This document shows positions 2,062 through 60,545 of a DNA stretch of 64,000 bases, in pieces. The position numbers and the translations under genes are program-made. Below the pieces are notes generated by a model. The model made no database searches, had not been told where the DNA came from, and saw only the letters and a list, made by a program, of their open reading frames with translations. Each line of letters opens with the position of its first letter. Within the stretch, counting starts at the first letter, position 1. The DNA comes from Clostridiales bacterium (lineage in GTDB: Bacteria > Bacillota > Dethiobacteria > Dethiobacterales > Dethiobacteraceae), in the NCBI GenBank assembly GCA_018335855.1, contig JAGXRM010000055.1, forward strand, positions 1-64,000. The letters run 5' to 3'.

Positions 2062-3672
2062 ATGTCATATACTCCCAAGATGAGGGAACAGATTAAAAAA
2101 GTAGAAGCCACCCGCGCTGAGCGGGTTAAGCAAAACTTTCCGCGCATGAACCCCGAACAAAAAGATAATGTGCTAAAGAATTTCCATCCGGACTATATTG
2201 AAGCCAGCATGCGCGCACTGCCCGTCGGTGTGAATAAAGGTGACCGGGTACCCCACGAACTGGCCGACTTAATCGAAGCCCGCAGCCGGGTGGAGAACAT
2301 TAAGTTTGACCTAGAAGATATCGCCTACGATGTTGACGTGCTTGTTGTCGGCGGCGGCGGGGCCGGTGCTTCCGCAGCACTGTTGGCCCAGGAGCAGGAT
2401 GCCGATGTATTAATGGTTACCAAGCTGCGTTTCGGTGATGCAAACACCGTGATGGCGCAGGGCGGAATCCAGGGTGCCGATAAAGAAAATGATTCTCCCG
2501 CCATTCACTATCTTGATGTTATGGGCGGCGGCCACTACACCAACGTACCAGAGTTGGTCCGCGCACTGACCATGGATGCACCCATTGCCCTGAAATGGCT
2601 GGAATACCTGGGAACCATGTTTGATAAATTCGAAGACGGCACCATGAAAAGTATTCACGGCGGCGGTACTTCACGCAAGCGGATGCATTCAGCCCGTGAC
2701 TACTCCGGCGCTGAAATCATGCGTACCCTGCGGGACGAAGTACGCAACCGCGGAGTACGTGTGATTGAATTCTGCTCTGTTGTAGAACTGCTGCTGGATG
2801 AAGACGGTAAATGCGGCGGTGCCATTCTTTACAATATGGAAACCGGTGAATATGAAATTGCCCGGGCCAAGACGGTTATTATGGCTGTCGGCGGTTCAGG
2901 CCGCCTGCATTACCAGGGTTTTCCCACAACAAATCACTACGGAGCCACAGGAGACGGCCTGATCATGGGCTATCGTGCCGGCGCGAAGCTGGCATTTATG
3001 AACACCATTCAGTATCATCCCACAGGTGCCGCTTATCCGCCGCAGATTCTCGGACTGCTGATTACTGAAAAAGTCCGCGGTCTCGGAGCAGAACCGGTCA
3101 ATATTGACGGTGCCCAATTCGTTTTCCATCTGGAAACCCGTGACGTGGAAGCATCCGCCATCATCCGTGAGGTAAAACAAAACGGTAAAGGCGTTACCAC
3201 TCCCACCGGGATGGTCGGCGTGTGGCTGGATTCTCCCATGATTGATATTATTCATGGGCCGGGAACGATTGAAAAAGAACTTCCCGCCATGGTCCGGCAG
3301 TTCGCCCGGTTCGGCGTGGATATCGTCCGTGACCCCATGCTGATTTACCCTGCTTTGCATTACCAGAACGGTGGACTGCTCATTGATGAAAATGGTATGA
3401 CCAATGTGGAGAACCTGTATGTGGCCGGTGAAGGCGCAGGCGGTATCCACGGCAAAAACCGTCTGATGGGTAACTCACTTCTGGATATCGTTGTCTTTGG
3501 CCGTCGTGCCGGCAAACATGCCGGTGCCCGAGTTAAAGACATTACAGTGAAGAAGCTTAATATGGACCATGTGGCCAGCTACCACAAAGAGCTGGAGGAC
3601 AACGGCGTAGATACTGCCGGCCGTGTTTCGCCACTTCTCCTGCCACGCTATACTCACCGTATTGACGAATAA
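2062..3672 (+). CDS. Fumarate reductase/succinate dehydrogenase-like flavoprotein subunit
   Basis: 536-residue FAD enzyme of the SdhA/FrdA/NadB superfamily. An ADP-binding motif VVGGGGAGASAALLAQ lies near residue 95. Catalytic-domain segments follow: HGGGTSRKRMHSARDYSG, HPTGAAYPPQILGLLITE, HYQNGGLLIDENG and the C-terminal FAD motif VAGEGAGGIHGKNRLMGNSL. The N-terminal about 80 residues precede the Rossmann fold, which is longer than classical FrdA. Paired with the Fe-S gene just upstream, it probably interconverts fumarate and succinate. A strong terminator follows. Confidence 0.85.
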   Translation: MSYTPKMREQIKKVEATRAERVKQNFPRMNPEQKDNVLKNFHPDYIEASMRALPVGVNKGDRVPHELADLIEARSRVENIKFDLEDIAYDVDVLVVGGGGAGASAALLAQEQDADVLMVTKLRFGDANTVMAQGGIQGADKENDSPAIHYLDVMGGGHYTNVPELVRALTMDAPIALKWLEYLGTMFDKFEDGTMKSIHGGGTSRKRMHSARDYSGAEIMRTLRDEVRNRGVRVIEFCSVVELLLDEDGKCGGAILYNMETGEYEIARAKTVIMAVGGSGRLHYQGFPTTNHYGATGDGLIMGYRAGAKLAFMNTIQYHPTGAAYPPQILGLLITEKVRGLGAEPVNIDGAQFVFHLETRDVEASAIIREVKQNGKGVTTPTGMVGVWLDSPMIDIIHGPGTIEKELPAMVRQFARFGVDIVRDPMLIYPALHYQNGGLLIDENGMTNVENLYVAGEGAGGIHGKNRLMGNSLLDIVVFGRRAGKHAGARVKDITVKKLNMDHVASYHKELEDNGVDTAGRVSPLLLPRYTHRIDE

Positions 3673-3887: not shown

Positions 3888-5027
3888 TTGAAACTGCTGG
3901 AAGACGTGCGCGTGCTTGACTTAACCAGACTTTACCCAGGACCGTTCTGTACAATGATGATGGCTGACATGGGTGCGGAAGTAATCAAGGTGGAAAGTCC
4001 GGGGGAAGGCGATTATATGCGGACAATGGGGCCGATGGAGGGAGAAGACAGTCTGTACTTTCGCCTGTTAAACAGAAATAAAAAAAGCATCACGCTTAAT
4101 TTAAAGAGTAAAAAAGGCGTTGAAGTACTTCACCGGCTTGCTGCGACTGCCGATGTGATTGTTGAAAGTTTTCGACCCGGAGTAGTCGATTCATTGGGCG
4201 TTGGTTATGCTGACCTTAAAAAAATAAAGGATGATATCATCTATTGCTCTATCACAGGCTACGGACAGGACGGTCCCTATAAAGACCGGGCAGGCCATGA
4301 CTTAAACTATATTGCACTGGCAGGCATATTGGACATGACCGGCAGCGCTGGCGGTTCTCCGGCCATTCCCGGCGTGCAGCTGGGTGATGTGGGAGGCGGC
4401 GCTTTAATGGCATTATCACCGATCATGGCCGCTTTATATGCCCGTTCCCGGGGTAAGGGCGGATGCTATATTGATGTGGCTATGCTAGACGGCCTGATTT
4501 CCTGGCTGCCGTTGTCTGCAGCAGAGGCTTTTGCCGGCAATCAGGCGGGTAGGGGAAGCTCGGCGTTAAACGGTGCGCTGGCCTGCTACAATGTTTATAA
4601 GACATCTGATGGATGTTATATGGCCCTGGGAGCACTGGAAGCTAAATTCTGGACGGAATTTTGTCAAGCCGTTGGCAAGGAAGATTGGAGAGCGAAGCAT
4701 TACCAGGCAGACCAGGCGGCGTTAAAGAAGGAACTGGCTGATTTGTTTGCTGGCCGTATGCAACAGGAGTGGAAAGAGCTATTCCTGGCCTATGACTGCT
4801 GTTGTGAACCGGTTCTCACAATAAACGAAGCGTTTACCCACCCACAGGTTATAGCCCGTAAAGCAGTGGGAGATAACTCATTATCTTTCCCGATTAAGAT
4901 ATCCGGAGAAACAGCAGAGTTGCGTCACCCGGCGCCCAAGATCGGGGAACATACTGAAGAAGTTCTGTGCCACGCCGGTTTTTCCCGGGAAGAAGTGGCG
5001 ACCCTGCGGGAAAATGAAGTATTGTAA
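3888..5027 (+). CDS. CaiB/BaiF-type CoA-transferase family III protein
   Basis: 379-residue protein of the formyl-CoA transferase / alpha-methylacyl-CoA racemase family, which moves CoA between carboxylic acids through an aspartyl-CoA thioester. Visible signatures are RVLDLTRLYPGPFCTMMMADMGAEVIKVE at the N-terminus (residues about 7-35), LNRNKKSITLNLK, the GHDLNYIALAG segment holding the likely catalytic Asp, and the C-terminal APKIGEHTEEVL. TTG 3888 is preferred to TTG 3882 because GAGAGGGGGA is 7 bases upstream. The substrate is not evident. It stands alone between the C4 block and the acetate transporter. Confidence 0.85.
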   Translation: MKLLEDVRVLDLTRLYPGPFCTMMMADMGAEVIKVESPGEGDYMRTMGPMEGEDSLYFRLLNRNKKSITLNLKSKKGVEVLHRLAATADVIVESFRPGVVDSLGVGYADLKKIKDDIIYCSITGYGQDGPYKDRAGHDLNYIALAGILDMTGSAGGSPAIPGVQLGDVGGGALMALSPIMAALYARSRGKGGCYIDVAMLDGLISWLPLSAAEAFAGNQAGRGSSALNGALACYNVYKTSDGCYMALGALEAKFWTEFCQAVGKEDWRAKHYQADQAALKKELADLFAGRMQQEWKELFLAYDCCCEPVLTINEAFTHPQVIARKAVGDNSLSFPIKISGETAELRHPAPKIGEHTEEVLCHAGFSREEVATLRENEVL

Positions 5028-5059
5028 GGCGAAATACCATATAAGTCAAAAAATGAATT

Positions 5060-5116
5060 TATATTCAGAATATTCAAAATTAATGCTTGCTTTTCAAATT
5101 CACTAAATGTTATAAT
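5060..5116 (+). promoter_or_regulatory. Sigma-A-type promoter with upstream box, Na+/solute symporter operon
   Basis: TTGCTT at 5087-5092, an 18-base spacer and TATAAT at 5111-5116. Immediately upstream is TATATTCAGAATATTCAAAA. A near copy of both promoter and upstream box at almost the same spacing precedes acetyl-CoA synthetase, which suggests a common regulator. Confidence 0.65.
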
Positions 5117-5160
5117 CTCTTTAAAAGGATGCAAATCTGAATTGTATCAAAGGAATTACA

Positions 5161-5178
5161 TTATGCAAAACTGCATAA
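5161..5178. repeat. Inverted repeat in the symporter leader
   Basis: Perfect palindrome TTATGCA-AAAC-TGCATAA about 45 bases after the predicted promoter. It could be an operator or a small RNA hairpin. No T tract follows. Confidence 0.4.
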
Positions 5179-5349
5179 TAATGAGTAGAACAAGATTAAT
5201 AATAGTAAGAAAATTCTAAATATTAATTGTGGGAGGTGGTCTATGGATATGAAATCTTAGGACAACATCCAGGGTTAGCAGCTTAGATGAAGTAATATAA
5301 ATGAACGGCTGCCAGTTCTTGTGAAAAAAAAGCTGGAGGAGGAAAGAGA

Positions 5350-5628
5350 ATGACGGAAGAAAATAACTACAGAGCGGTAACGCAAGTTGATGCTGACGCT
5401 CACTGGAAAGAAAATGTCGGATTGGTCTCATGGCTGTTGCTTGTATGGTTTGTGGTTACGTGGGTAGTAGCACTACTGGCGAACCAGCTCAATTCCTTTT
5501 CGATACTGGGCTTCCCAATGGGCTACACCTTTGGATCGCTGTTTGCGCTACTAATTTACACGGTAATGATTTTTTATTACGCACACCGTATGGAACAAAT
5601 CGATGCGAAATACGGGATGAAAGAATAA
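5350..5628 (+). CDS. Sodium/solute symporter small subunit (DUF4212 family)
   Basis: 92-residue membrane protein with two transmembrane segments (about residues 25-47 and 54-78) and a cytoplasmic tail MEQIDAKYG, the layout of the small subunit that accompanies VC_2705-type symporters. The ribosome site GGAGGAGG precedes ATG. The large subunit begins 35 bases downstream, so the two are expected to be co-transcribed and to act together. Confidence 0.85.
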   Translation: MTEENNYRAVTQVDADAHWKENVGLVSWLLLVWFVVTWVVALLANQLNSFSILGFPMGYTFGSLFALLIYTVMIFYYAHRMEQIDAKYGMKE

Positions 5629-5662
5629 CACAGAAATCATAAGCGTTGAGGAGGGAAAATAA

Positions 5663-7396
5663 TTGAAAAACAAACAATGGGCAATGTTTGTGATAGGCGT
5701 AGTAACCATCTTGCTTGCTCTGGTAGGAATATTTACCATTATGGAAGGGCAAGGTCTTATCCAGCCCAGAACGATTGGCCTGATCTTTTTCTTTGGAACG
5801 GTTGCTTTATATGCTGTTGTCGGCCTGATGGTTTCAGCGCGCAAGGTTTCTGATTATTATGTGGCCGGGCGCGATATCCCCGCGCTTTATAACGGAATGG
5901 CTGGTGCCGCGAACTGGATGAGCGCGGCGTCCGTTATCGGGCTGGCAGGTACGATTTACTTGCTGGGTTATGACGGCTTGGCCTATATCATGGGCTGGAC
6001 CGGCGGCTATGTGCTTCTGGCTCTTCTTGTCGCTCCTTATATCCGGAAAATGCGGGCCTACACCGTGCCGGACTTTATGGCTGCCCGCTACGGCGGCAAT
6101 GTGGCCCGCGGCGTTTCTGTTTTTGCCGCGCTGGCGATGAATATTGTGTATCTGATTCCCCAGTTTATGGGTGTGGGTTCAATCGCCGCCCGTTTCCTGG
6201 GACTACCGTACCAAGTTGGTGTCTTTGTGGCACTTGCCGTAATTCTGCTCACCACCTTCTCTGGTGGGATGCGCGGTGTTACCTGGGTGTCTGTGGCCCA
6301 GTATCTAATATTAATAGTGGCCTTTCTGGTTCCGTTGGTGATTATGTCCGTCCGTCTGACGGGCAACCCCATCCCCTGGATCGCTTACGGCCGCGCATTG
6401 GAATCAATAACTAACTTTGAAAATGCGAATGGTATGGTTAACTATATCCAGCCGTTCCAGAAGATGGGTATGGTAAACACGCTGGGATTGATTTTCTGCC
6501 TGATGGTCGGAACCGTGGGTCTGCCCCACGTTATGACACGTTTTTATACTGTCCCCTCCGTCAAAGAATCCCGGATTAGCGTGGGTTGGTGCCTGCTCTT
6601 TATCATCCTGCTCTATATATCCGCTCCGGCAAAAGCGGCTCTTGTGCGGAACGACATTTACCATAACCTCGTTGGCACAAGTTACGATGAGCTTCCCGCC
6701 TGGATGGAGACCTGGGGTGCCCAGGGCCTCGTTAAGACCGAGGATAAAAACGGTGACGGTTTCCTGCAGTTTAATGAACTGACTCTTCATGCTGACATGA
6801 TCGTTATCGGGACTCCGGAAATCACCCGGATGCCGTACACAGTTTCCAGTCTGATTGGCGCCGGTGGTATGGCTGCAGCCGTATCCACATCCCTCGGACT
6901 GCTGATGGTGCTTGCCGCCGGTGTGGCCCACGATATTTACAAGAAGATGATTAACCCTGACGCGTCAGAGAGTACGGTTCTCTTCTGGTCACGGGCGGTA
7001 CTGGTTGTGGTGGCGTCGCTCTGCGCGTTAGCTGCCCTGACTCGGCCGGCGCTTATCGTAGCTATGGTAGCCTGGGCGTTTTCCATTGCCGCTTCATCAT
7101 TCTTCCCCGCGGTGTTCCTGGGGATTTGGTGGCGGCGAGCCAACGCTCCCGGTGCTGTCTCCGGCATGATAGTCGGACTGATCGTTACCATTAGCTACAT
7201 TATCGCTTCCCACTTCTATGGTGTTAGAATCTTCGGGATTTTACCGGTTAATGCGGGACTCTTCGGTGTTCCGGCCAACTTCATCGTGACATACTTTGTG
7301 TCAATGGCTACAGCGGCTCCGTCCGAAGATATTATGGACCTTGTTACGGAACTGCGCTATCCCGTTGCAACCCGGGCAATCGGTGAAGGCAACTAG
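5663..7396 (+). CDS. Sodium:solute symporter large subunit, acetate-type
   Basis: 577-residue polytopic transporter of the SSS family, starting at TTG 5663 after GAGGAGGG. It has the family segment SDYYVAGRDIPALYNGMA near residue 60 and many hydrophobic helices. An extramembrane loop around residue 361 contains DKNGDGFLQFNEL, an EF-hand-like sequence also known in the two-subunit members of this family. The last residues form a cytosolic tail. The downstream acetyl-CoA synthetase and the shared promoter type make acetate (or propionate) with Na+ or H+ the likely substrate; this is inference from context. Confidence 0.85.
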   Translation: MKNKQWAMFVIGVVTILLALVGIFTIMEGQGLIQPRTIGLIFFFGTVALYAVVGLMVSARKVSDYYVAGRDIPALYNGMAGAANWMSAASVIGLAGTIYLLGYDGLAYIMGWTGGYVLLALLVAPYIRKMRAYTVPDFMAARYGGNVARGVSVFAALAMNIVYLIPQFMGVGSIAARFLGLPYQVGVFVALAVILLTTFSGGMRGVTWVSVAQYLILIVAFLVPLVIMSVRLTGNPIPWIAYGRALESITNFENANGMVNYIQPFQKMGMVNTLGLIFCLMVGTVGLPHVMTRFYTVPSVKESRISVGWCLLFIILLYISAPAKAALVRNDIYHNLVGTSYDELPAWMETWGAQGLVKTEDKNGDGFLQFNELTLHADMIVIGTPEITRMPYTVSSLIGAGGMAAAVSTSLGLLMVLAAGVAHDIYKKMINPDASESTVLFWSRAVLVVVASLCALAALTRPALIVAMVAWAFSIAASSFFPAVFLGIWWRRANAPGAVSGMIVGLIVTISYIIASHFYGVRIFGILPVNAGLFGVPANFIVTYFVSMATAAPSEDIMDLVTELRYPVATRAIGEGN

Positions 7397-9737: not shown

Positions 9738-12173
9738 TTGAAACACAGAACGCTAAAACCAGAAGAATTACGCTATTTTTGCGATCCTTCACAGTTTGAA
9801 TTTGAAACAACAGAGTCGGTTCCGCCATTGGAAGGAATCATAGGCCAGGACCGGGCGGTGCGGGCCATGGAGTTTGGTCTGGCGATTAAACGCCGGGGAT
9901 ACAATATTTTCATGACAGGCTTGACAGGGACAGGGAAAGTTTCCTACGCCCAGACATTGATTAACGAGGTGGCAGGGACAGAACCGCCGCCCGACGATTG
10001 GTGCTACGTTTATAGTTTTGAGAATCCGGGTCATCCGGTGTCATTACGTTTACCGTGCGGTCAGGGATCCCGTTTTGCCAAAGATATGGAAGAACTGGTC
10101 GAATCATTAAAACTGGAGATTCCCAAAGCATTTGATGCCGATGACTATGAGCGGGAAAAAGCGGAGATTTTTAAAATATTCCAGGAAACCAGGTCGCAGT
10201 TGCTGGAAGAGCTAACGAGTACTGCAGCGGAACAGGGATTTGTTTTAAAAAAAGCAAGTACCGGGTTTGTCAGTATTCCTCTGGTGGACGGCCAGGAAAT
10301 TTCCACCGAAGAGTTTGAAGCGCTGCCTGCTGAAAAGAAAGAAGAATTTGAACGTAGATCCAGTGAAATTCAGCTTAAGGCATTGCAGTTAATGAGGAAG
10401 ATTCAAAGTGCAGAGCGGGAAATGAAAATTAAAATAAAAGAGTTGGAAAATAAAATTGGTCTTTTTGCCGTTGGCTATCTGATTGATGAGCTCAAAGAAC
10501 GTTATAGTAAAGAAGAGATGGTTACAGGGTACTTAACCGAAGTTCAAAAGGATATTCTGGATAACCTGGATGAATTCCGCGGTGTTGACGAAGATGAGGC
10601 CAACCCCTTTCCCTGGATGAAGCGTAAAGGAGATCCGGGCCACAAATACCGTGTAAATTTAGTCGTAGATAATAAAGATACCATAGGTGCGCCGGTGATT
10701 CTGGAAACCAACCCGACGTACTACAATTTGGTCGGCCGTGTCGAGTATGAAAACAAAATGGGCATGGTGACCACCGACTATACTATGATTAAAGCCGGCT
10801 CATTATTAAAAGCCAACGGTGGGTATCTTCTTCTGCAAATCAGGGATGTTCTGACCAGTCCCGGTGCATGGGAAGGGCTCAAACGGGTACTGAAGACCAG
10901 GGAAGCTTGTATGGAGAACCTGGGTGAACAGTTTGGCCTATTGGCTATGTCGTCACTGCGTCCCCAGCCCATTCCCGTAGATGTCAAAGTAATACTGATT
11001 GGCAATCCCAGTATCTATCAAGCTCTTTACCATTTAGACGAAGATTTCCGTAAGCTATTTAAAGTAAAAGCTGATTTTGATACAGATATGGTTAGCAGCC
11101 GTGAAAACATGACGCAGATGGCCAGCTTTATTGCTACTCACTCAGAGCGTGAAGGCGTACGCCATTTTGACCGTACAGCCGTAGCCCGTCTGGTTGAGTA
11201 CAGTGCCCGTCTGGCTGACCACCAGGGTAAACTAAGCACCCGGTTCAATGAGATTGTGGAGATTATTTTTGAAGCAGATGCATGGACGCAAATGGCCGAT
11301 GCTGAAATAGTGAGTGGTAATCATGTTAAGAGAGCAATTGAGGAGAAAGTTTTCCGTTCCGATAAATATGAACAGAAATTGCAAGAGTTTCTGGATGAAG
11401 GAACGATCCTCTTAGATGTGGACGGTGAAAAAGTCGGCCAGCTTAATGGACTTTCTGTACTAAATAGCGGTGATTATATATTTGGCCGGCCGTCCAGAAT
11501 TACAGCCGTGACTTATTTGGGGAAACAGGGCATTATAAATATTGAGCGGGAAACAAAAATGAGCGGTCAGATTCACGATAAAGGGTTACTGACACTGAGT
11601 GGGTATATTGCGTCTAAGTTTGCTCAGGAGCGTCCACTGACATTGTCTGCCAGCCTGACATTTGAACAACTGTACTCTGGTGTAGACGGCGATAGCGCTT
11701 CCAGCACAGAGCTATATGCTATTCTATCGAGCCTTTCCGGGTTACCCCTCAGACAGGATATTGCCGTAACCGGGTCAGTGAATCAGCGTGGGGAAGTGCA
11801 ACCCATTGGCGGTGCCACGTATAAAGTGGAAGGCTTCTTTAAAGCCTGTAAACTTTTAGGGCTTACCGGCAAACAAGGGGTAATGCTGCCGGTGCAAAAT
11901 ATTAAAAATCTGAATCTCTCTGATGAAGTGGTTGATGCGGTGCGCGAAGGTAAATTTCATATTTACCCGGTTGCCAGTATTGACGAAGGCATAGAAGTCT
12001 TAACCGGGGTATCAGCCGGAACACAGGAGCCGGATGGCGGCTACCCTGCAGATACTGTCTATGGACTTGTGGCTGCAAAACTGGAAAGATACCATAATCT
12101 TTCACAGCAGTCGGACAACGAAGATGATGGTGAAAAAGACCGGGGATCTGCCTGCCCTGACGGCTGCCATTAA
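9738..12173 (+). CDS. Lon-like ATP-dependent protease (AAA_32/LonC type)
   Basis: 811-residue cytosolic AAA+ protease. A Walker A-like GLTGTGK lies near residue 61. A long helical insertion (about 110-280) separates it from the rest of the ATPase domain. The C-terminal Lon protease domain has the Ser of GDSASSTELYA (about 653) and the Lys of GGATYKVEGFF (about 696), forming the Ser-Lys dyad. It lacks the N-terminal substrate domain of classical Lon. TTG 9738 is chosen because AAAGGGGGAAG lies just upstream and the family homology begins there; the frame is open further 5' but crosses the acsA terminator. Confidence 0.85.
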   Translation: MKHRTLKPEELRYFCDPSQFEFETTESVPPLEGIIGQDRAVRAMEFGLAIKRRGYNIFMTGLTGTGKVSYAQTLINEVAGTEPPPDDWCYVYSFENPGHPVSLRLPCGQGSRFAKDMEELVESLKLEIPKAFDADDYEREKAEIFKIFQETRSQLLEELTSTAAEQGFVLKKASTGFVSIPLVDGQEISTEEFEALPAEKKEEFERRSSEIQLKALQLMRKIQSAEREMKIKIKELENKIGLFAVGYLIDELKERYSKEEMVTGYLTEVQKDILDNLDEFRGVDEDEANPFPWMKRKGDPGHKYRVNLVVDNKDTIGAPVILETNPTYYNLVGRVEYENKMGMVTTDYTMIKAGSLLKANGGYLLLQIRDVLTSPGAWEGLKRVLKTREACMENLGEQFGLLAMSSLRPQPIPVDVKVILIGNPSIYQALYHLDEDFRKLFKVKADFDTDMVSSRENMTQMASFIATHSEREGVRHFDRTAVARLVEYSARLADHQGKLSTRFNEIVEIIFEADAWTQMADAEIVSGNHVKRAIEEKVFRSDKYEQKLQEFLDEGTILLDVDGEKVGQLNGLSVLNSGDYIFGRPSRITAVTYLGKQGIINIERETKMSGQIHDKGLLTLSGYIASKFAQERPLTLSASLTFEQLYSGVDGDSASSTELYAILSSLSGLPLRQDIAVTGSVNQRGEVQPIGGATYKVEGFFKACKLLGLTGKQGVMLPVQNIKNLNLSDEVVDAVREGKFHIYPVASIDEGIEVLTGVSAGTQEPDGGYPADTVYGLVAAKLERYHNLSQQSDNEDDGEKDRGSACPDGCH

Positions 12174-12204
12174 ACGGTATCGCAAATCAGGAAGGACTGG
12201 AACA

Positions 12205-13275
12205 TTGAGAGCACTGCTGAGTGTAGAACAGTTCCTTGAGAACATGAATCAGTATTTTATTGTTGACGTTCGCTCCCCCCTTGAATACGCGGAGGCTTCT
12301 ATTCCGGGAGCTGTCAATATTCCTTTGTTTGATGATCAAGAGCGGGCAGTCGTCGGCACCACGTATAAGCAGGAGGGGACCGACCAAGCTAAAATGGTCG
12401 GTCTTTCTCTCGTTTCTCCACGGTTGCCCAAAATGGTGGAAAAGATAATTTCTGCAGCAGCTGGCCGGGAAATCGTGCTCTATTGTTGGCGGGGCGGTAT
12501 GCGCAGCCGCAGCATTTTTACGTTGTTGGAAGCGTTGGGATATCCGGTGTTACAGTTGGTTGGAGGTTATAAGGCATTTCGTCGTCGGGTTAACAAATTT
12601 TTAAACGATGCCACAGTAAATGTACCTGTCATTGTTTTAAACGGTCTGACCGGTGTGGGAAAAACGCTGGTCATTAAAGAACTGCAGCAGATGAATGCAC
12701 CTGCTTTGGATCTGGAAGCGATGGCTAACCACCGCGGCTCAGCGTTTGGCAGCGTAGGCCTGGGAAAGCCCCGTAGCCAGAAAGATTTTGAAGCTTTACT
12801 TTTTCTGGAGATCCATAAATGTAAAGATGCACCATTTCTCATCGTCGAGGGAGAAGGCAAGTGCATTGGCTCCGTGGTAATCCCTGAATTTTTTTATCAA
12901 GCGATGTTGGACGGACAGCACATCCTCCTGGAGACAGGGTTAGAAACAAGAGTAGAAAGAATTGTCGATGAATACCGGAATGTCTCGGTGGAAAATACAG
13001 AGGATCTGGCCACTGCAGTCTTGGCTCTGCAAAAACGGTTAGGCAAGAATAAATGTGAAGAATTGGCAGAGCAAGTCAGGCAGGGTGAATTTCATTATGC
13101 AGCAACTTGTCTTTGTACCGAATATTATGATTCCTACTACAAAGATTCACGTCGCAGACACGGGGATTATCTGGCGGTCATTAATGTAGATGATGTGAGT
13201 CACGGAGCCAAGGAAGTTGTGGCGGTGATTAACAGTTACTTCCAGGGCAGGAAGGAGCATCATGGCACAGTATAG
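12205..13275 (+). CDS. mnmH: tRNA 2-selenouridine synthase
   Basis: 356-residue protein that replaces the sulfur of 2-thiouridine-34 in tRNA with selenium from selenophosphate. It has an N-terminal rhodanese domain with YCWRGGMRSRS (active-site Cys about residue 93) and a C-terminal P-loop domain beginning GLTGVGKT (about 147). Both halves are typical of SelU/MnmH. TTG 12205 with AGGAAGGA 8 bases upstream fits the family N-terminus. An upstream extension would run into the protease gene. Its presence implies selenophosphate supply (SelD) and agrees with the selenoproteins in this window. Confidence 0.92.
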   Translation: MRALLSVEQFLENMNQYFIVDVRSPLEYAEASIPGAVNIPLFDDQERAVVGTTYKQEGTDQAKMVGLSLVSPRLPKMVEKIISAAAGREIVLYCWRGGMRSRSIFTLLEALGYPVLQLVGGYKAFRRRVNKFLNDATVNVPVIVLNGLTGVGKTLVIKELQQMNAPALDLEAMANHRGSAFGSVGLGKPRSQKDFEALLFLEIHKCKDAPFLIVEGEGKCIGSVVIPEFFYQAMLDGQHILLETGLETRVERIVDEYRNVSVENTEDLATAVLALQKRLGKNKCEELAEQVRQGEFHYAATCLCTEYYDSYYKDSRRRHGDYLAVINVDDVSHGAKEVVAVINSYFQGRKEHHGTV

Positions 13276-44423: not shown

Positions 44424-44802
44424 TTATAGGCATTCCCTCTTTTATCTTTTAACATTAATAATACATTAACATTTAGTTCTGACAGTTGTGAAAAATTCAT
44501 TATCATGTCATGAAAATTAGAAGTTTATGATGATGGCGTGAAATTTATGTGAAGTTTTTTATGATTAGCTATAGCGTAAATCATAAAAATGTGCTACACT
44601 AATACTGGCAATAACCCTTATGTATAAGGAGATTCTTTGTGCATAGAATATCTATAGGAATACTATATGAAGTTAGTATATGAGGATTTTTTAAGAAAGA
44701 CTAAGTTCAAAAGTTCACTAATACTAAGCGCGGGAGGAGTGGGCAGAAAGTACAAGCGCTAAAGTGTCTAGTTAAACCGGGGGTCAATGACAACACAGAG
44801 AG
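44424..44802. other. AT-rich intergenic region between fprA and the Sec cytochrome
   Basis: About 380 bases without a supported gene. It holds an inverted repeat TTTTTATGATT (44556-44566)/AATCATAAAAA (44579-44589), several AT-rich promoter-like stretches and a purine-rich GCGGGAGGAGTGGG near 44729 that is not followed by an ORF. Divergent promoters for fprA and the cytochrome are expected here. Confidence 0.5.
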
Positions 44803-44811
44803 GTGATTTAT

Positions 44812-46113
44812 TTGCAGAAAAATGGAGGAAAAAGTTTAGTATTTTTAAGACTGCTTGTTTTATCAGCTTTTGTTGTGCTGATTTTTTCCGGGTGCGGGGC
44901 CAAAAAATCTCCTGTATCTCCCGTAGCTGCTGTGGTCAGTGACGCGTGTATCCTCTGTCACATCAGTCCAGAGGCTATTGACATGATGCATGTCCCGCCG
45001 GAAGTTGCCGCCGGCGGCGGTGGGTGAGGCGTGGCGGGCCCGCAGTTAGCGGGCAGCGAAATGTTTTGTATCAGTGAGGATTTTCTCAGCTCGGAACACG
45101 GCAAGCTCGGCTGCATCGCCTGTCACGGCGGTGAAAATGTCGGAGATTTTGGGAAGGCTCATGCCGGGGTAAACCGTTATCCGTCAGCAGATGCCGGCGG
45201 TATCTGTAATCAATGCCACGGTGAAATAGGCGCAACCTTTGCTAATTCCATCCACTATACGGTTCAGGGGATGGCAAACGCTCTGGAAAACTTCACCCAT
45301 CCGGGAGTGTTGGACGTGGACGGCCCGTTGAAGACGGCGTTTGATAACAATTGTTACAAATGCCATGCAACATGTGGTTCCTGCCATGTCAGCAGGCCAA
45401 AAGCGTTTACCGGCGGTCTTCACTCCCAGCATGTTTTCACTAAGCGCCCGCCAATGGAAGACACTTGCTACGGTTGCCATGGTGCCAGAAATGCTGGCGA
45501 ATACATGGGTAAAGTTGGCTATACCAAGGATGTTCACTTTGAGTCCGGCAAACATTGTGCAGATTGTCACAATGTAAGTAATTTCCACGGTACCGGTGTT
45601 GCAGAGCAGAATATGTATGAAGTTGACCTGCCTCAATGTACGGACTGTCATGAAAATATTTATAGTGGTTCGTCCATTCCAGCCCATAACATACATTCTG
45701 CGGACACCATGTCCTGCCAGGTATGTCACGCATCAGCCAATAATAACTGCTTTGACTGTCATGCAACGCAAAAAACGGATGACAGTGTTGCTGGGGTGGC
45801 CGATCAGATGAGAATTATGTTTAAAATCGGCCTAAACCCGGAGAGGACCGAGGAAAGGCCATACAAGTACATTACTTTGCGTCATATTCCCACGACGCCG
45901 GATACCTTTGCCCCGCTGGGCGGTGAACTACCCAACTATGACCTGATTCCCAACTGGAAATACTCACCAACGCATAATATCCAGCGCAAAACAGTTCAGA
46001 ACGAGAGCTGCGATTCTTGTCACGGGAATCAGTACATTTGGCTGCAGGAGAAGGATTTACGGGAGAACGACAGCAAGTCCAACCTGAAACTGGTTGTTCC
46101 GGATCTGCCTTAA
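44812..46113 (+). CDS. Eleven-haem c-type cytochrome lipoprotein with selenocysteine (TGA 45025-45027)
   Basis: Reading through one in-frame TGA gives 433 residues. The lipoprotein signal LRLLVLSAFVVLIFSGCG places it outside the membrane. Eleven CxxCH haem sites are visible: CILCH before the TGA, then CIACH, CNQCH, CYKCH, CGSCH, CYGCH, CADCH, CTDCH, CQVCH, CFDCH and CDSCH. The TGA is codon 72 in the context GGGGUGVAGPQ. Without read-through the signal peptide and first haem would be cut from the other ten. A SECIS-like hairpin follows the TGA. TTG 44812 has GAGAGGTGA at good spacing. A rhodanese lipoprotein follows. Likely an extracytoplasmic electron-transfer or reductase protein; substrate unknown. 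Confidence 0.85.
45038..45054 (+). promoter_or_regulatory. Candidate SECIS hairpin in the cytochrome gene
   Basis: GCCCGC-AGTTA-GCGGGC, a perfect 6-base stem. The loop begins 17 bases after the TGA with G as its second base, inside the known bacterial SECIS range. Confidence 0.75.
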
Positions 46114-46206: not shown

Positions 46207-47166
46207 ATGAAAAAGAATCTTAGATTACTGTTGCTTGTGCTTTTAATCGGTTTAATGATTTTTAGTGTGGTAGGTTGCGGCAAATCAACAACACCAACTC
46301 CGCCGCCCGTTGCGGAAGAACCCGTTGCTGAAGAACCCGAAGCGCTTGATCCTCAGCAGGTGCTACTTGATGCCGCTAAGGCATATTTCCCCAAAGTTGC
46401 GGATAGCAACAATATTATTCCCTCGGAAGATGTAAAGGACATGCTGGAATCCAATCCAGATTCCGTATTAATCATCGATATCCGCAGCGCAGAAGATTTT
46501 GAAGCCGGCCACATCCCTGGAGCGGTCCACAGCCCGTGGGCAAATGTTGGAGAAATCATGGATCGTATTCCCCGCAATAAGCCTGTTGTGGTTGCTTGTT
46601 ACAGCGGCCAGACAGCTGGCCAGACTATCGGCGCACTGAGAGCAGCAGGATTTGACAATGTGAAGTCCCTGTTTTACGGAATTAAGCTTGGCTGGACCGG
46701 GAAAAGCGGGTTTGAGCTGGAAGGTACCGGCATGGTAGCCGCTGCCGATCTGCCGGTAGTATCCGCCCCCACTAGCGAAGAAGAAGAAATTCTTTGGCAG
46801 GCCGCCAAAGATTACTTCCCCAAGGTGGCAACCTCAGCCGAAGGAAACAAAATTATTCCCGGGGCGGACCTGTACGCTGCGCTTCAGGATAACCCAAGTT
46901 CTTTCCATGTTATTGATATCCGCAGCGCCGAGCACTTCGCGGAAGGCCATATCGAGCACTCCGTTCACAGCCCGTGGTCCAAGTTCGGTGATTTGCTAGA
47001 AGGGCTACCCACAAACCGTCCGATTGTTGTAGCATGCTATTCCGGCCAGACGGCGGGACAGACCGTGGGCATACTGCGTATGATGGGTTACGACGCTTAC
47101 TCACTCTTTTACGGTGTACGTGACGGTTATGTCGCCAAAGACAATCTGCCGCTCGTTACAAACTAA
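46207..47166 (+). CDS. Lipoprotein with two rhodanese domains
   Basis: 319-residue protein with a lipobox ending VVGC (Cys24) and a Pro/Glu-rich linker. Two rhodanese domains have nearly identical active sites, VVACYSGQTAGQTIGALRAAG (first, about 126) and VVACYSGQTAGQTVGILRMMG (second, about 278). Each is preceded by VxIIDIRSAEDFEAGHIPG-type segments. Both catalytic Cys are kept, so sulfur or selenium transfer is possible on the outer face. The domains share a KxYFPKVA repeat start, showing internal duplication. It lies 93 bases after the Sec cytochrome and likely works with it. Confidence 0.85.
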   Translation: MKKNLRLLLLVLLIGLMIFSVVGCGKSTTPTPPPVAEEPVAEEPEALDPQQVLLDAAKAYFPKVADSNNIIPSEDVKDMLESNPDSVLIIDIRSAEDFEAGHIPGAVHSPWANVGEIMDRIPRNKPVVVACYSGQTAGQTIGALRAAGFDNVKSLFYGIKLGWTGKSGFELEGTGMVAAADLPVVSAPTSEEEEILWQAAKDYFPKVATSAEGNKIIPGADLYAALQDNPSSFHVIDIRSAEHFAEGHIEHSVHSPWSKFGDLLEGLPTNRPIVVACYSGQTAGQTVGILRMMGYDAYSLFYGVRDGYVAKDNLPLVTN

Positions 47167-47213: not shown

Positions 47214-47972
47214 TTATATAGCAGGTTCTTTTAGCATATTAATAAAATTAAGCACTAGCTTAATCTGGTCTTTATCCAGTGTGCAGATATGTCCGATAAG
47301 CATTTGCACTTTAGTGTCAAAGAGAAGCTCTCTAAGTTCTGGCGTGATGCCAACCATTATCCCTTCAGCATCCTCCTGTTCAAGAATCAAAAAGCAGGTG
47401 GATACACCAAGCGCACTGGCAATCCTTTCAATAGTCTTTAATGAAGGCTGAACTTTTCCCGCCTCTAACTGGGCAATCAACCCTGGTGAAACTTCGGCCC
47501 CGCCAGCAAGCTGTTTTTGTGTCATTCCTTTAGCTTCCCGGGTCGTTTTGATTTTTTTACCTGTTGTTATAAGCTTAGACTGGGTATGTAAAAAAACGCT
47601 AACAGGAACGCTAAAGTATCTGCTAATTTTTTGCAGCGTCTGTATGGAAGGCGTTCTTTCTTCCAGTTCAATTTCACTCAGATAGGTCGTTGAGAGATCA
47701 AGATGTTTGCCCAGCTCTTCCAGTGTCAGTTTTTTTTCTTCGCGCATAGCTCTTACTTTATCTCCCAGGCCACGGGTGCTGATATGTATCTTTCCCAGTT
47801 CTTCGTCAAAATCTAGATTTTCAAGCAGAAAATCTAACGCTTTATTCGTTAATTCTCTTTTACCATCTTCAACTTCCTGCAGATAGGCTAAGGGAAGATT
47901 GCAACTGCGGGAAAGCTCTTCTAATGAAATTTTTTGTTTTGTCCTTATCTTTTTCAAGTGTTTTTCCAGCAT
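47214..47972 (-). CDS. Regulator with three XRE helix-turn-helix domains
   Basis: 252-residue protein with three Cro/C1-type HTH units in tandem: residues about 4-56 (ISLEELSRSCNLPLAYLQEV), 69-125 (LTLEELGKHLDLSTTYLSEIE) and 137-193 (MTQKQLAGGAEVSPGLIAQLE), then a C-terminal helical tail of about 55 residues. GGGAGGG precedes ATG. Three domains would allow binding of an extended or multi-site operator. It is convergent with the rhodanese gene; targets unknown. Confidence 0.8.
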   Translation of the reverse strand: MLEKHLKKIRTKQKISLEELSRSCNLPLAYLQEVEDGKRELTNKALDFLLENLDFDEELGKIHISTRGLGDKVRAMREEKKLTLEELGKHLDLSTTYLSEIELEERTPSIQTLQKISRYFSVPVSVFLHTQSKLITTGKKIKTTREAKGMTQKQLAGGAEVSPGLIAQLEAGKVQPSLKTIERIASALGVSTCFLILEQEDAEGIMVGITPELRELLFDTKVQMLIGHICTLDKDQIKLVLNFINMLKEPAI

Positions 47973-51378: not shown

Positions 51379-51640
51379 AATTGGCCGCCAGGAAATGCGA
51401 ACCTTGGTCTGCGCCCAGTGCCATGTTACCTACTACCTCGACCCTAAAACAGCAGAGGTCAAAATCCCCTGGTCGCAAGAACCAAATATAAATGCGGTTG
51501 AAAACTACTTTTCTGCCTCTCTTTTCCGCGAATGGACACATACCATGACCGAGGCTGATTTAGTTAAGCTACGCCATCAGGACTACGAATTTTTCCTGGG
51601 CAGTAATCATTTTGAGGCCGGCGTAACCTGTGTCGATTAG
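51377..51640 (+). pseudogene. Internal fragment of cytochrome c nitrite reductase (nrfA)
   Basis: The frame GRQEMRTLVCAQCHVTYYLD (CxxCH haem), then VKIPWSQ and VKLRHQDYEFFLG through GVTCVD-stop matches the middle of NrfA, the pentahaem ammonia-forming nitrite reductase. The next haem motif (usually ADCHMP) is lost to the stop. It is missing both ends and abuts the IS fragment, so it is a relic. Confidence 0.75.
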
Positions 51641-51669: not shown

Positions 51670-52185
51670 ATGATGTTGCGAGACGCTTATGAGCTCATGA
51701 AATTACTCCCAATTGGGACTGAGGCTGTGAAATTCGAACTCAAGGATATTTTTGGAAATATAGTTACACTAGACGATTTTTTGGGTAAGTATTGGGTAGT
51801 GCTGGAGTTTGGCTCCTTCACGTGACCTCCCTTCCGGAGCCAGATGGCTCCCATGGAGAGCGTAGCCGCTGAATTAAAATCAAAGCCCGTACGATTTTTA
51901 ATCATTTACACTCGTGAAGCCCACCCCGGCCAATATAATTTTAAGCATATTCCTCAACACTGCAACATAGAAGACAAGAGCAAGATGGCAGCAATGCTTC
52001 AACAAGAAACTGGCTTGGAAAACAGAACCATATTGATTGATGATATTAATGATTCTGTAACGAGAACGTATCGGGGATTTCCCAACAAGGCGTATATCAT
52101 TGGCCTTAACGGCAAAATAGTTTACGCCGATCGCTGGGCTTCTGCCGATAGAATCAGTAAAGAGGTACACAGTCTCTTGAAATAA
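51670..52185 (+). CDS. Iodothyronine deiodinase-like selenoprotein (TGA 51823-51825 read as Sec)
   Basis: Read-through gives 171 residues. VVLEFGSFTUPPFRSQM places Sec52 exactly where vertebrate deiodinases have NFGSCTUPPF. Downstream, FLIIYTREAHPGQYNFK matches the deiodinase VIYIEEAH region, and the C-terminal half is a thioredoxin-like fold with RTILIDDINDSVTRTYRGFP and KAYIIGLNGKIVYADRW. AAAGGGAGG precedes the paired ATG codons at 51670 and 51673. A hairpin of SECIS form follows the TGA. Thyroid hormone is not the substrate; a peroxidase or reductive dehalogenation role is open. It lies downstream of decayed genes and carries its own ribosome site. Confidence 0.88.
51836..51851 (+). promoter_or_regulatory. 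Candidate SECIS hairpin in the deiodinase-like gene
   Basis: GGAGCC-AGAT-GGCTCC, a perfect 6-base stem. The loop starts 17 bases after the TGA and has G as its second base. Confidence 0.75.
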
Positions 52186-54171: not shown

Positions 54172-54915
54172 TCATAATTGAACAGGTAGTTTTTTAATGC
54201 TACCCGGTGATTCGATATCCTGCAATGCCTGTAAAGCCATGGTAACTACACGAGTTTGTGTTTCCACGTCAAAAGCCTTACCGGTAACTCTTCCCAGAGG
54301 AAAATTAACATGTACTGCTCTGGGAACCCGGATTTTTGCGGTTAATCCCTGCATTAATGTTATACTCACAGTAATGAGACCGGCTGTTTCCAGTTCCCGC
54401 TGAATCAATCCCACCGATTGATGGCACAGCGGTCAGCCTGGAGTAAGTAAAACTATATCAGTTTCTTGTTTTAATAGTTCCCGGGCTACTTTGCCTGCAT
54501 TGGCAATCAGTGTTTCATGCAGGGCATTAAGGATAAAGCCCATAAACCCATAATTTGTTGCAGAGATTCCTTTAATAAAGCCGGACTGCACCAGTTCCTC
54601 AAGTCTTGTTATGGGGAAGACACAATTAATATCTTTATCTGCGTCAGTATGGTCATAATGAGTGTGAGTGATTAGATAGTCCTCTAGTGGCGCTTTAGCC
54701 GAAACTTCCCGAAAGGAAGCATCCCCCTTTTTTGCCTTGACATCAAAGGGTGCCTGATTCTTTAAATGCACGCCAGCGGTAGTAACAAGGGCGACGCGAC
54801 ATTCGTTTAGAGTTTTTTGCAGGGGCTGCCACGGTACTTCTTTGCCCGTGTTATCAACTATAAATGGTTTAACAAGCTTCTGTGTCAAATTTTGTTTTAA
54901 CATATATTCTCTCAT
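54172..54915 (-). CDS. Selenoprotein B family reductase-like protein (PrdB-like; TGA 54433-54435 read as Sec)
   Basis: Read-through yields 247 residues (243 if the second ATG, 54903, is used). RVALVTTAGVHLKNQAPFD, ITHTHYDHTDADKDINCVFP and GFMGFILNALHETL precede VLLTPGUPLCHQSVGLIQRE, matching the glycine/betaine/D-proline reductase selenoprotein B family (PrdB/GrdB), with Sec161 at its known place. A 7-base-stem SECIS-like hairpin follows the TGA. No proline reductase PrdA or other Prd/Grd subunits are nearby, so the substrate is probably different. Confidence 0.85.
54404..54422 (-). promoter_or_regulatory. Candidate SECIS hairpin in the PrdB-like gene
   Basis: On the minus strand ATCAATC-GGTGG-GATTGAT; perfect stem, loop starting 18 bases after the TGA with G first. 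Confidence 0.75.
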
Positions 54916-59303: not shown

Positions 59304-60545
59304 ATGGTCAGCCTCGAAAAGCTCCATCCTGAGGAGCGAAACTTCCTCGAAAACGTACCCTGTCCGACATTTGCAGCACAGCCTTGGGTCAGGGGCAAAA
59401 AACTGAAGGAAAGGCGAGTCGCAATAATTTCCACGGCCGGTCTGCATCAGCCCGAAGACCGCCCCTTTACCTCTGTGGAAGGTGATTACTACCGTATAAT
59501 TCCCGGGGACATTCAATCAAATAACCTGGTAATGAGCCATGTCTCGGTCAATTTTGACAGGACAGGCTTTTACCGGGACTTAAATGTGGTCTTTCCCATT
59601 GACCGCCTGAGGGAACTTGCAGAAAGCGGCGATATCGGCAGCATAGCAAGCTTTCATTATTCTTTCATGGGCGCTGATGATCCTATGAGATGGGAGCAGA
59701 CGGCACGCCATCTTGCAGGCCTGTTAAAAAAAGACAATATTGACGCCGTGTTGCTGGTGCCGGTCTGACCGCTTTGTACGCGCGCCGTTGGCGTGCTGGC
59801 ACACTTTCTTGAGGAGGAAGGGCTTGCTACCACGCAAATCAGCCTGATTCGCCTGCATACGGATGTTATCAAGCCGCCAAGAGCCCTTTGGGTGCCTTTT
59901 GAACTTGGTCGCCCGTTAGGAGAGCCAAATAACCCAGCTTTTCAGAAGCGTGTTCTGATGTCCGCCCTCGGTCTGCTTGAAGCGCCACGGGGCCCGCTGC
60001 TGATCGATTTCCCGGATGATACCCCGTTATTAGGGGGGGCGCCGGTTATGCTTGCCTGCCCATATGTTCCGCCGGCAGAGGATGCCGAGACCACGCAGGC
60101 CGACCGGCTTTGCAAGACCTTTAAAACAGAAATGACATCGATGAGACCCTGGTATGATCAGGCCTTAAAAAAGCGAGGGCGTACCATAGTCGGAATTAGC
60201 AAACTCACACCCGAGGCTATCGCAGATTTTTTGTGTTCTTTCCTTGAAGGCAGCACTCCTACTCAGAACCCGCGCCAGGATGTATCTCTTGCATACCAAC
60301 TCGGGTATTCAGTAGAAGACCTGAAGGCCTACTACTATGAGGCTATCACGGCGCAACCTGGTGCTGATGTTCTGTCTAGCGAAGATCTCGATAAATGGTT
60401 TTGGGAAAATACAGTTGCCGGAAAATTCTTGCGGGAATTAAGAGGAATTTGTCTTAAAAACGAAGATAAATTGTTGCAACAGACCGCCGCAAGGCGGATA
60501 ATACCTCAAAAAACCCTGTTAACAAATACTGGTGGTAAAGGATAG
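59304..60545 (+). CDS. Selenoprotein B family reductase-like protein (TGA 59766-59768 read as Sec)
   Basis: Read-through yields 413 residues. RRVAIISTAGLHQPEDRPF, VMSHVSVNFDRTGFYRDLNV and the Phe-rich HYSFMGADDP precede VLLVPVUPLCTRAVGVLAHF, the selenoprotein B family active site with Sec155. After about residue 230 comes a distinct C-terminal extension of about 180 residues (IVGISKLTPEAIADFLCSFL, YYYEAITAQPGADVLSSEDL) not present in the shorter paralogue in this window. GGAGG precedes ATG 59304. SECIS-like hairpin after the TGA. Substrate unknown. Confidence 0.85.
59780..59796 (+). promoter_or_regulatory. Candidate SECIS hairpin in the long selenoprotein B-like gene
   Basis: GCGCGCC-GTT-GGCGTGC with one G-U pair; loop begins 19 bases after the TGA with G first. 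Confidence 0.7.

Follow-up and report, generated by a model that had tools for sequence, protein, structure and literature searches.

An eleven-haem c-type cytochrome with a predicted selenocysteine and its rhodanese partner in anaerobic Bacillota

A 64,000-nucleotide stretch of DNA from a Clostridiales bacterium of the family Dethiobacteraceae (contig JAGXRM010000055.1, positions 1 to 64,000), hereafter called the window, contains the frame of an eleven-haem c-type cytochrome with a single in-frame TGA, which almost certainly encodes selenocysteine (Sec). Selenocysteine is rare in haem proteins. The gene is directly followed by one for a lipoprotein with two rhodanese domains, and the two proteins are jointly best explained, with slightly better than even confidence and with a genuine Sec included, as an extracytoplasmic reductase of sulfane sulfur (thiosulfate or polysulfide).

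The cytochrome frame and the conservation of its TGA

The frame at 44812-46113 on the forward strand is open apart from the one TGA. The sequence-only reading of this DNA had described the codon as parting a lipoprotein signal and the first haem motif from ten further CxxCH motifs, which proved accurate when the frame was reread. The following features were assigned to the cytochrome and to the gene downstream of it, all on the forward strand:

44800..44805 (+): ribosome-binding site GAGGTG, six nt 5′ of the TTG start (direct reading)
44812..46113 (+): c-type cytochrome of 433 residues with 11 haems and Sec; begins with TTG, coordinates include the stop codon
44884..44895 (+): lipobox FSGC, residues 25-28, at the end of the signal peptide (direct reading, motif only)
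44947..44961 (+): haem motif 1, CILCH, residues 46-50, the sole one upstream of the TGA
45025..45027 (+): in-frame TGA, predicted Sec, codon and residue 72, context GGGGUG
45038..45054 (+): SECIS-like hairpin GCCCGC-AGTTA-GCGGGC, separated from the TGA by 10 nt
45112..46024 (+): haem motifs 2 to 11, all CxxCH and downstream of the TGA; residues 101-105, 132-136, 181-185, 188-192 and 219-223 (motifs 2-6), 249-253, 276-280, 302-306, 313-317 and 400-404 (motifs 7-11)
46207..47166 (+): lipoprotein with two rhodanese domains, loop CYSGQTA in each (PF00581, E = 5.7e-29)

Judged by these motifs, the cytochrome would leave the cytoplasm, stay attached to the cell surface and bind eleven haems c. Its designation as a lipoprotein is a prediction from the signal peptide and the lipobox motif of the window protein; in several orthologues (L013, L014 and L039) the lipobox is missing. 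The location of the Sec in a GGGGUG context between haems 1 and 2, outside the haem motifs, agrees with the motif map and with the homologues.

Homologues were collected by whole-genome searches of the class and the phylum, in which frames with exactly one internal TGA were found. The genome sample covers one phylum; searches in the orders and the class of the distant members yielded no further homologues. In three pairs of loci (L003/L012, L005/L013 and L006/L014), both members come from a single contig present in two collections, and each pair was counted once. After removal of duplicates, 16 of the 21 homologues, the window protein included, have a TGA at the corresponding place, the Gly-rich segment that separates haem 1 from haem 2. 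These 16 represent nine families of the Bacillota, and those in alignment A1 share 34-74% identity with the window protein. In four remote members the TGA is offset by one or two columns by the aligner, and the length of the segment varies. The remaining homologues comprise four remote relatives in which the Gly-rich segment is missing (L043, L051, L054 and L055), and L050, the sister of L047, which has TCA (Ser) at the Sec position. Neither Cys nor Trp occupies this position in any of the 21 homologues.

The alignment at residue 72, which had been suggested as a check, therefore gave TGA in 16 of 21 homologues, one Ser and no Cys, and neither intact homologues without conservation of this column nor TGG or TGC in place of the TGA were encountered. 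At L050 (5790-6758) a single base of the Sec codon is changed and the hairpin is intact; the TCA is either a recent replacement of Sec by Ser or an assembly error. In the phylogenetic tree, all Sec forms, with L050 among them, lie on one side of one branch (support 91/85), so that one origin and one replacement by Ser suffice. A comparison of orthologues revealed codon differences that are mostly in third positions on both sides of the TGA.

Hairpin and selenocysteine decoding

The six-base-pair stem with an AGTTA loop that had been noticed close to the TGA is present at 45038-45054 and covaries among the homologues. For the 49 nt from the TGA onwards a folding energy of -21.2 kcal/mol was calculated (z = -2.9), which was equalled by one of 200 shuffled sequences. 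In ten sequences that could be aligned without gaps, 88% of the pairs of the six-pair stem are kept and 13 cells are changed on both sides, compared with 3.0 after shuffling and 0-3 in slid controls. The hairpin energies of single sequences are modest and, in many members, are often equalled when synonymous codons are resampled with the protein kept, so that this procedure gives modest support for single members (P = 0.017 for the window hairpin). Shifted or weaker hairpins were found in L040, L046, L047 and L048; that of L047, CACAGTT-GGA-AACTGTG, is an example of the different hairpins of the remote members. A scan of the window against Rfam gave no match, which is neutral with regard to the hairpin.

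The machinery for Sec insertion was searched for in 21 genomes. SelB was detected above the cut-off in all of them (C20:36950-38824 in the genome of the window), and tRNA-Sec exceeded the Rfam cut-off in 20 (C57:22465-22557 in the genome of the window). The tRNA-Sec score lies below the cut-off in G046 and barely above it in G020, both of which are fragmented assemblies. The TGA in 16 homologues, the covarying hairpin, the presence of SelB and tRNA-Sec, the constraint on both sides of the codon and the tree together make it nearly certain, as far as comparative sequence data can tell, that residue 72 is Sec and that the cytochrome is a genuine selenoprotein. The UGA at codon 72 would be decoded via SelB, tRNA-Sec and the hairpin immediately 3′ of it, as the comparative data support.

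Further genes of this kind were observed elsewhere in the window. A deiodinase/AhpC-like frame at 51673-52185 (+) matches PF00837 (E = 6.8e-16) and contains a TGA at 51823-51825 in the context FGSFTUPPF, followed by the stem GGAGCC-AGAT-GGCTCC (fold z = -2.8); it is the predicted second selenoprotein of the window. Two PrdB/GrdB-like proteins at 54289-54915 (-) and 59304-60545 (+) have an in-frame TGA before PLC (TPGUPLC and VPVUPLC, respectively) and are probably further selenoproteins. At 51395-51640 (+), a fragment of 81 residues of the cytochrome c nitrite reductase NrfA ends with a TAG inside a would-be haem motif and looks like a decayed gene.

The rhodanese partner and related cytochromes

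The rhodanese gene at 46207-47166, which is missing from the sequence-only reading, is the best clue to the function of the cytochrome. Of the 16 Sec forms, 14 have a secreted rhodanese next to the cytochrome, in most cases downstream. At L047 it lies upstream, and in L039 it is joined to the C-terminal end of the cytochrome; in the latter, the cytochrome and a double rhodanese share one frame (4251-6452), and a second, separate double rhodanese is encoded at 2704-3510. In the DNA read around L013 and the fragmentary L042, no rhodanese was found. Among the relatives without the Gly-rich segment, none is located beside L043, L051 or L054, and L055 has a weak rhodanese match about 2 kb away. The genome of the window contains only two rhodanese genes, namely the partner gene and a homologue of mnmH, encoding the tRNA 2-selenouridine synthase MnmH, at 12034-13275 (+) of the window, so that an adjacency to the cytochrome by chance is very unlikely. 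Given this association of the genes, the two proteins would be expected to work together and to be in physical contact.

Other neighbours in the family include cytochrome b561 proteins at L045 and L048, haem c assembly proteins at L014 and L047 and, at L040, a PhsA-like molybdoprotein and NrfD, which represent a sulfur context. Next to the pair in the window, a helix-turn-helix regulator is encoded at 47214-47972 (-), which is also found near the pair in L012, L038 and L045 and is a candidate for its regulator.

As a kind of protein, a multihaem cytochrome with Sec is already known from ExtKL of Geobacter (GSU2937-GSU2936, NF040886; extHIJKLMNOPQS). The prediction dates from 2007 and describes a cytochrome with an in-frame TGA; its five haems lie in the N-terminal part, the C-terminal part resembled nothing known, and no SECIS was detected (PMC1914089). 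The cluster of ExtKL also encodes a rhodanese-like protein, ExtH, and a porin, ExtI, the loss of which impairs the reduction of selenite and tellurite (PMC5877670). ExtKL and the window family share the multihaem c-type character, the conserved in-frame TGA and a rhodanese in the vicinity, and for ExtKL, too, no homologue without Sec was found. In contrast to ExtKL, the window family has eleven haems along the whole chain, a Sec that follows haem 1 and precedes haem 2, and a hairpin that covaries. It is separate from ExtKL, with the Sec placed differently: the window gene is absent from the matches of NF040886 in its own genome at E <= 10 (cut-off 250 bits). A phylum-wide search with the same model listed no match, the control sequences being likewise unmatched. 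The genome also encodes a weakly ExtKL-like cytochrome without TGA (L015, G000:C38:76286-77392, -), which scores 60.7 bits against the cut-off of 250.

A 2026 review mentions ExtKL, a protein of the GSU2204 family and one Sec-annotated record of an octahaem tetrathionate reductase (PMC13188914). No description of an 11-haem Sec cytochrome family was found in the open-licence literature searched, and the family is apparently undescribed. The octahaem tetrathionate reductases (TIGR04315) resemble it as multihaem proteins, named after a sulfur oxyanion, with the one Sec-annotated record; none of the ten alignment members matched this model at E <= 0.001, and the haem number differs. The recurrence of a Sec cytochrome together with a rhodanese in two cytochrome families is notable and would point to chalcogen transfer chemistry in both.

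With regard to sulfur enzymes, a weak profile match to MccA (4rkm, E = 6.8e-5) and a likewise weak one to the nitrite reductase superfamily (NrfA/ONR) were obtained around residues 238-341. The octahaem sulfite reductase MccA/SirA has eight haems, one of them on a CX15-17CH motif. Membership of the window protein in this family was rejected, as it has eleven CxxCH motifs and no conserved CX15-17CH, and the profile match misses the Sec segment. A CX17CH-like spacing before haem 2 of the window protein is due to chance, its Cys not being conserved in the homologues. AlphaFold2 models of four close homologues have a mean pLDDT of 28.5.

In the 15 complete Sec forms, eleven haem motifs each were counted, except for ten in L048. 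Outside the motifs, nine His are invariant in these forms and a tenth is present in 12 of the 15. Since the conserved distal His are fewer than the haems, the distal side of at least one haem may be free of His and accessible to the substrate or to the Sec. The sequence-only reading had argued for a catalytic selenol and not simple electron transfer, which is plausible and fits both the rhodanese partner and the shortage of distal ligands.

Possible functions of the pair

A link to physiology is provided by Dethiobacter alkaliphilus, which reduces thiosulfate, yet has neither Dsr nor molybdopterin enzymes for this task; in thiosulfate-grown cells, the multihaem cytochrome DealDRAFT_1917, encoded next to the rhodanese DealDRAFT_1918, was increased (PMC10376724, PMC5609068). 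Like the window pair, these genes (cluster 5-T, strain AHT1) encode a multihaem cytochrome beside a rhodanese in an organism of the same class. Unlike it, DealDRAFT_1917 is described as an octahaem SirA homologue, and selenium is not mentioned in the main text of the paper. Judged by gene order, the two are probably orthologues of the window pair. In G010, a Sec cytochrome with 69% identity to the window protein forms the single cytochrome-rhodanese pair of the genome. If DealDRAFT_1917/1918 are the Sec pair, the peptides assigned to DealDRAFT_1917 probably originate from beyond the TGA. A simple sulfur view is countered by strain Z-1002, in which Fe(II) oxidation was the only condition under which the homologue was detected; this strain reduces thiosulfate and not elemental sulfur (PMC10376724).

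The adjacency of the rhodanese, the neighbours of sulfur context, the weak profile match to MccA, the thiosulfate data of D. alkaliphilus and the shortage of distal His are the basis for favouring a sulfane-sulfur reductase. More specifically, and with confidence that falls somewhat short of even, a new class of enzyme is proposed in which the rhodanese hands sulfur to a Sec on a flexible Gly arm and the 11-haem cytochrome reduces it to sulfide. The Cys of the rhodanese would accept a sulfane sulfur from thiosulfate or polysulfide and form a persulfide, whose sulfur would then be accepted or attacked by the selenol on the Gly-rich arm under formation of a Se-S bond. Two electrons from the haem chain, fed by the quinone pool, would release sulfide and restore the selenol. 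In this scheme the Gly-Sec arm would act like the sulfur-binding GGCGG stretch of SoxY (PMC6067878), for reduction rather than oxidation. That both place a reactive chalcogen residue among Gly residues (GGCGG vs. GGGGUG) is an analogy of design, not homology; in SoxY, the residue is a Cys at the C-terminus and belongs to the thiosulfate-oxidising Sox complex.

It is unlikely that the pair instead acts on selenite, tellurite or another chalcogen oxyanion, a type of substrate that has been proposed for the Ext cluster of Geobacter, with a rhodanese that handles selenium and not sulfur. The make-up is the same as in the Ext cluster, with a Sec multihaem protein, a rhodanese-like protein and the phenotype of the ExtI mutant (PMC5877670), and the partner rhodanese weakly matches ExtH (E = 0.015). 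However, the window cytochrome does not belong to the ExtKL family, no porin, ExtM, ExtN or Rieske protein was found among the neighbours read, and DealDRAFT_1917, if orthologous, responds to thiosulfate.

A role in extracellular electron transfer to or from iron, in which the selenol or selenolate serves as axial haem ligand, redox partner or metal trap and the rhodanese maintains or repairs it, is judged quite unlikely. The invariant distal His, being fewer than the haems, would leave room for such a ligand, iron is both reduced and oxidised by relatives of the window organism, and Fe(II) oxidation is the condition under which the homologue of Z-1002 appeared (PMC10376724). However, a Gly-rich arm of variable length would be a poor fixed ligand, and the adjacent rhodanese points to the transfer of sulfur or selenium.

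Very unlikely is a Sec enzyme for sulfite, tetrathionate or organic disulfides, for which the rhodanese would only remove or supply sulfane sulfur: the weak profile matches to MccA and to the nitrite reductase superfamily are in its favour, but the CX15-17CH motif of MccA and a match to the octahaem tetrathionate model are both missing. That the TGA is a true stop, whether in a pseudogene, through a sequencing error or between two genes, the second re-initiated at GTG 45031, is extremely improbable, because the split made there by standard gene callers and the GTG two codons after the TGA with a purine-rich stretch ahead of it are outweighed by a TGA in 16 homologues of separate assemblies, a covarying hairpin and constraint on both sides, and a separate shorter gene starting at the GTG was ruled out by this constraint and by the missing signal peptide of the second piece.

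Gene calling that cuts such proteins at the TGA, as it does in the window, conceals the signal peptide, the first haem and the Sec site. In anaerobic Bacillota, the family combines Sec and haems with a partner that handles persulfide, and makes the standing question of which protein reduces thiosulfate in the cultured relative, which has no recognised thiosulfate reductase, directly testable in a cultured strain. If the proposed sulfane-sulfur reductase is true, it would account for the way in which bacteria that lack Dsr, Phs and Psr enzymes respire thiosulfate.
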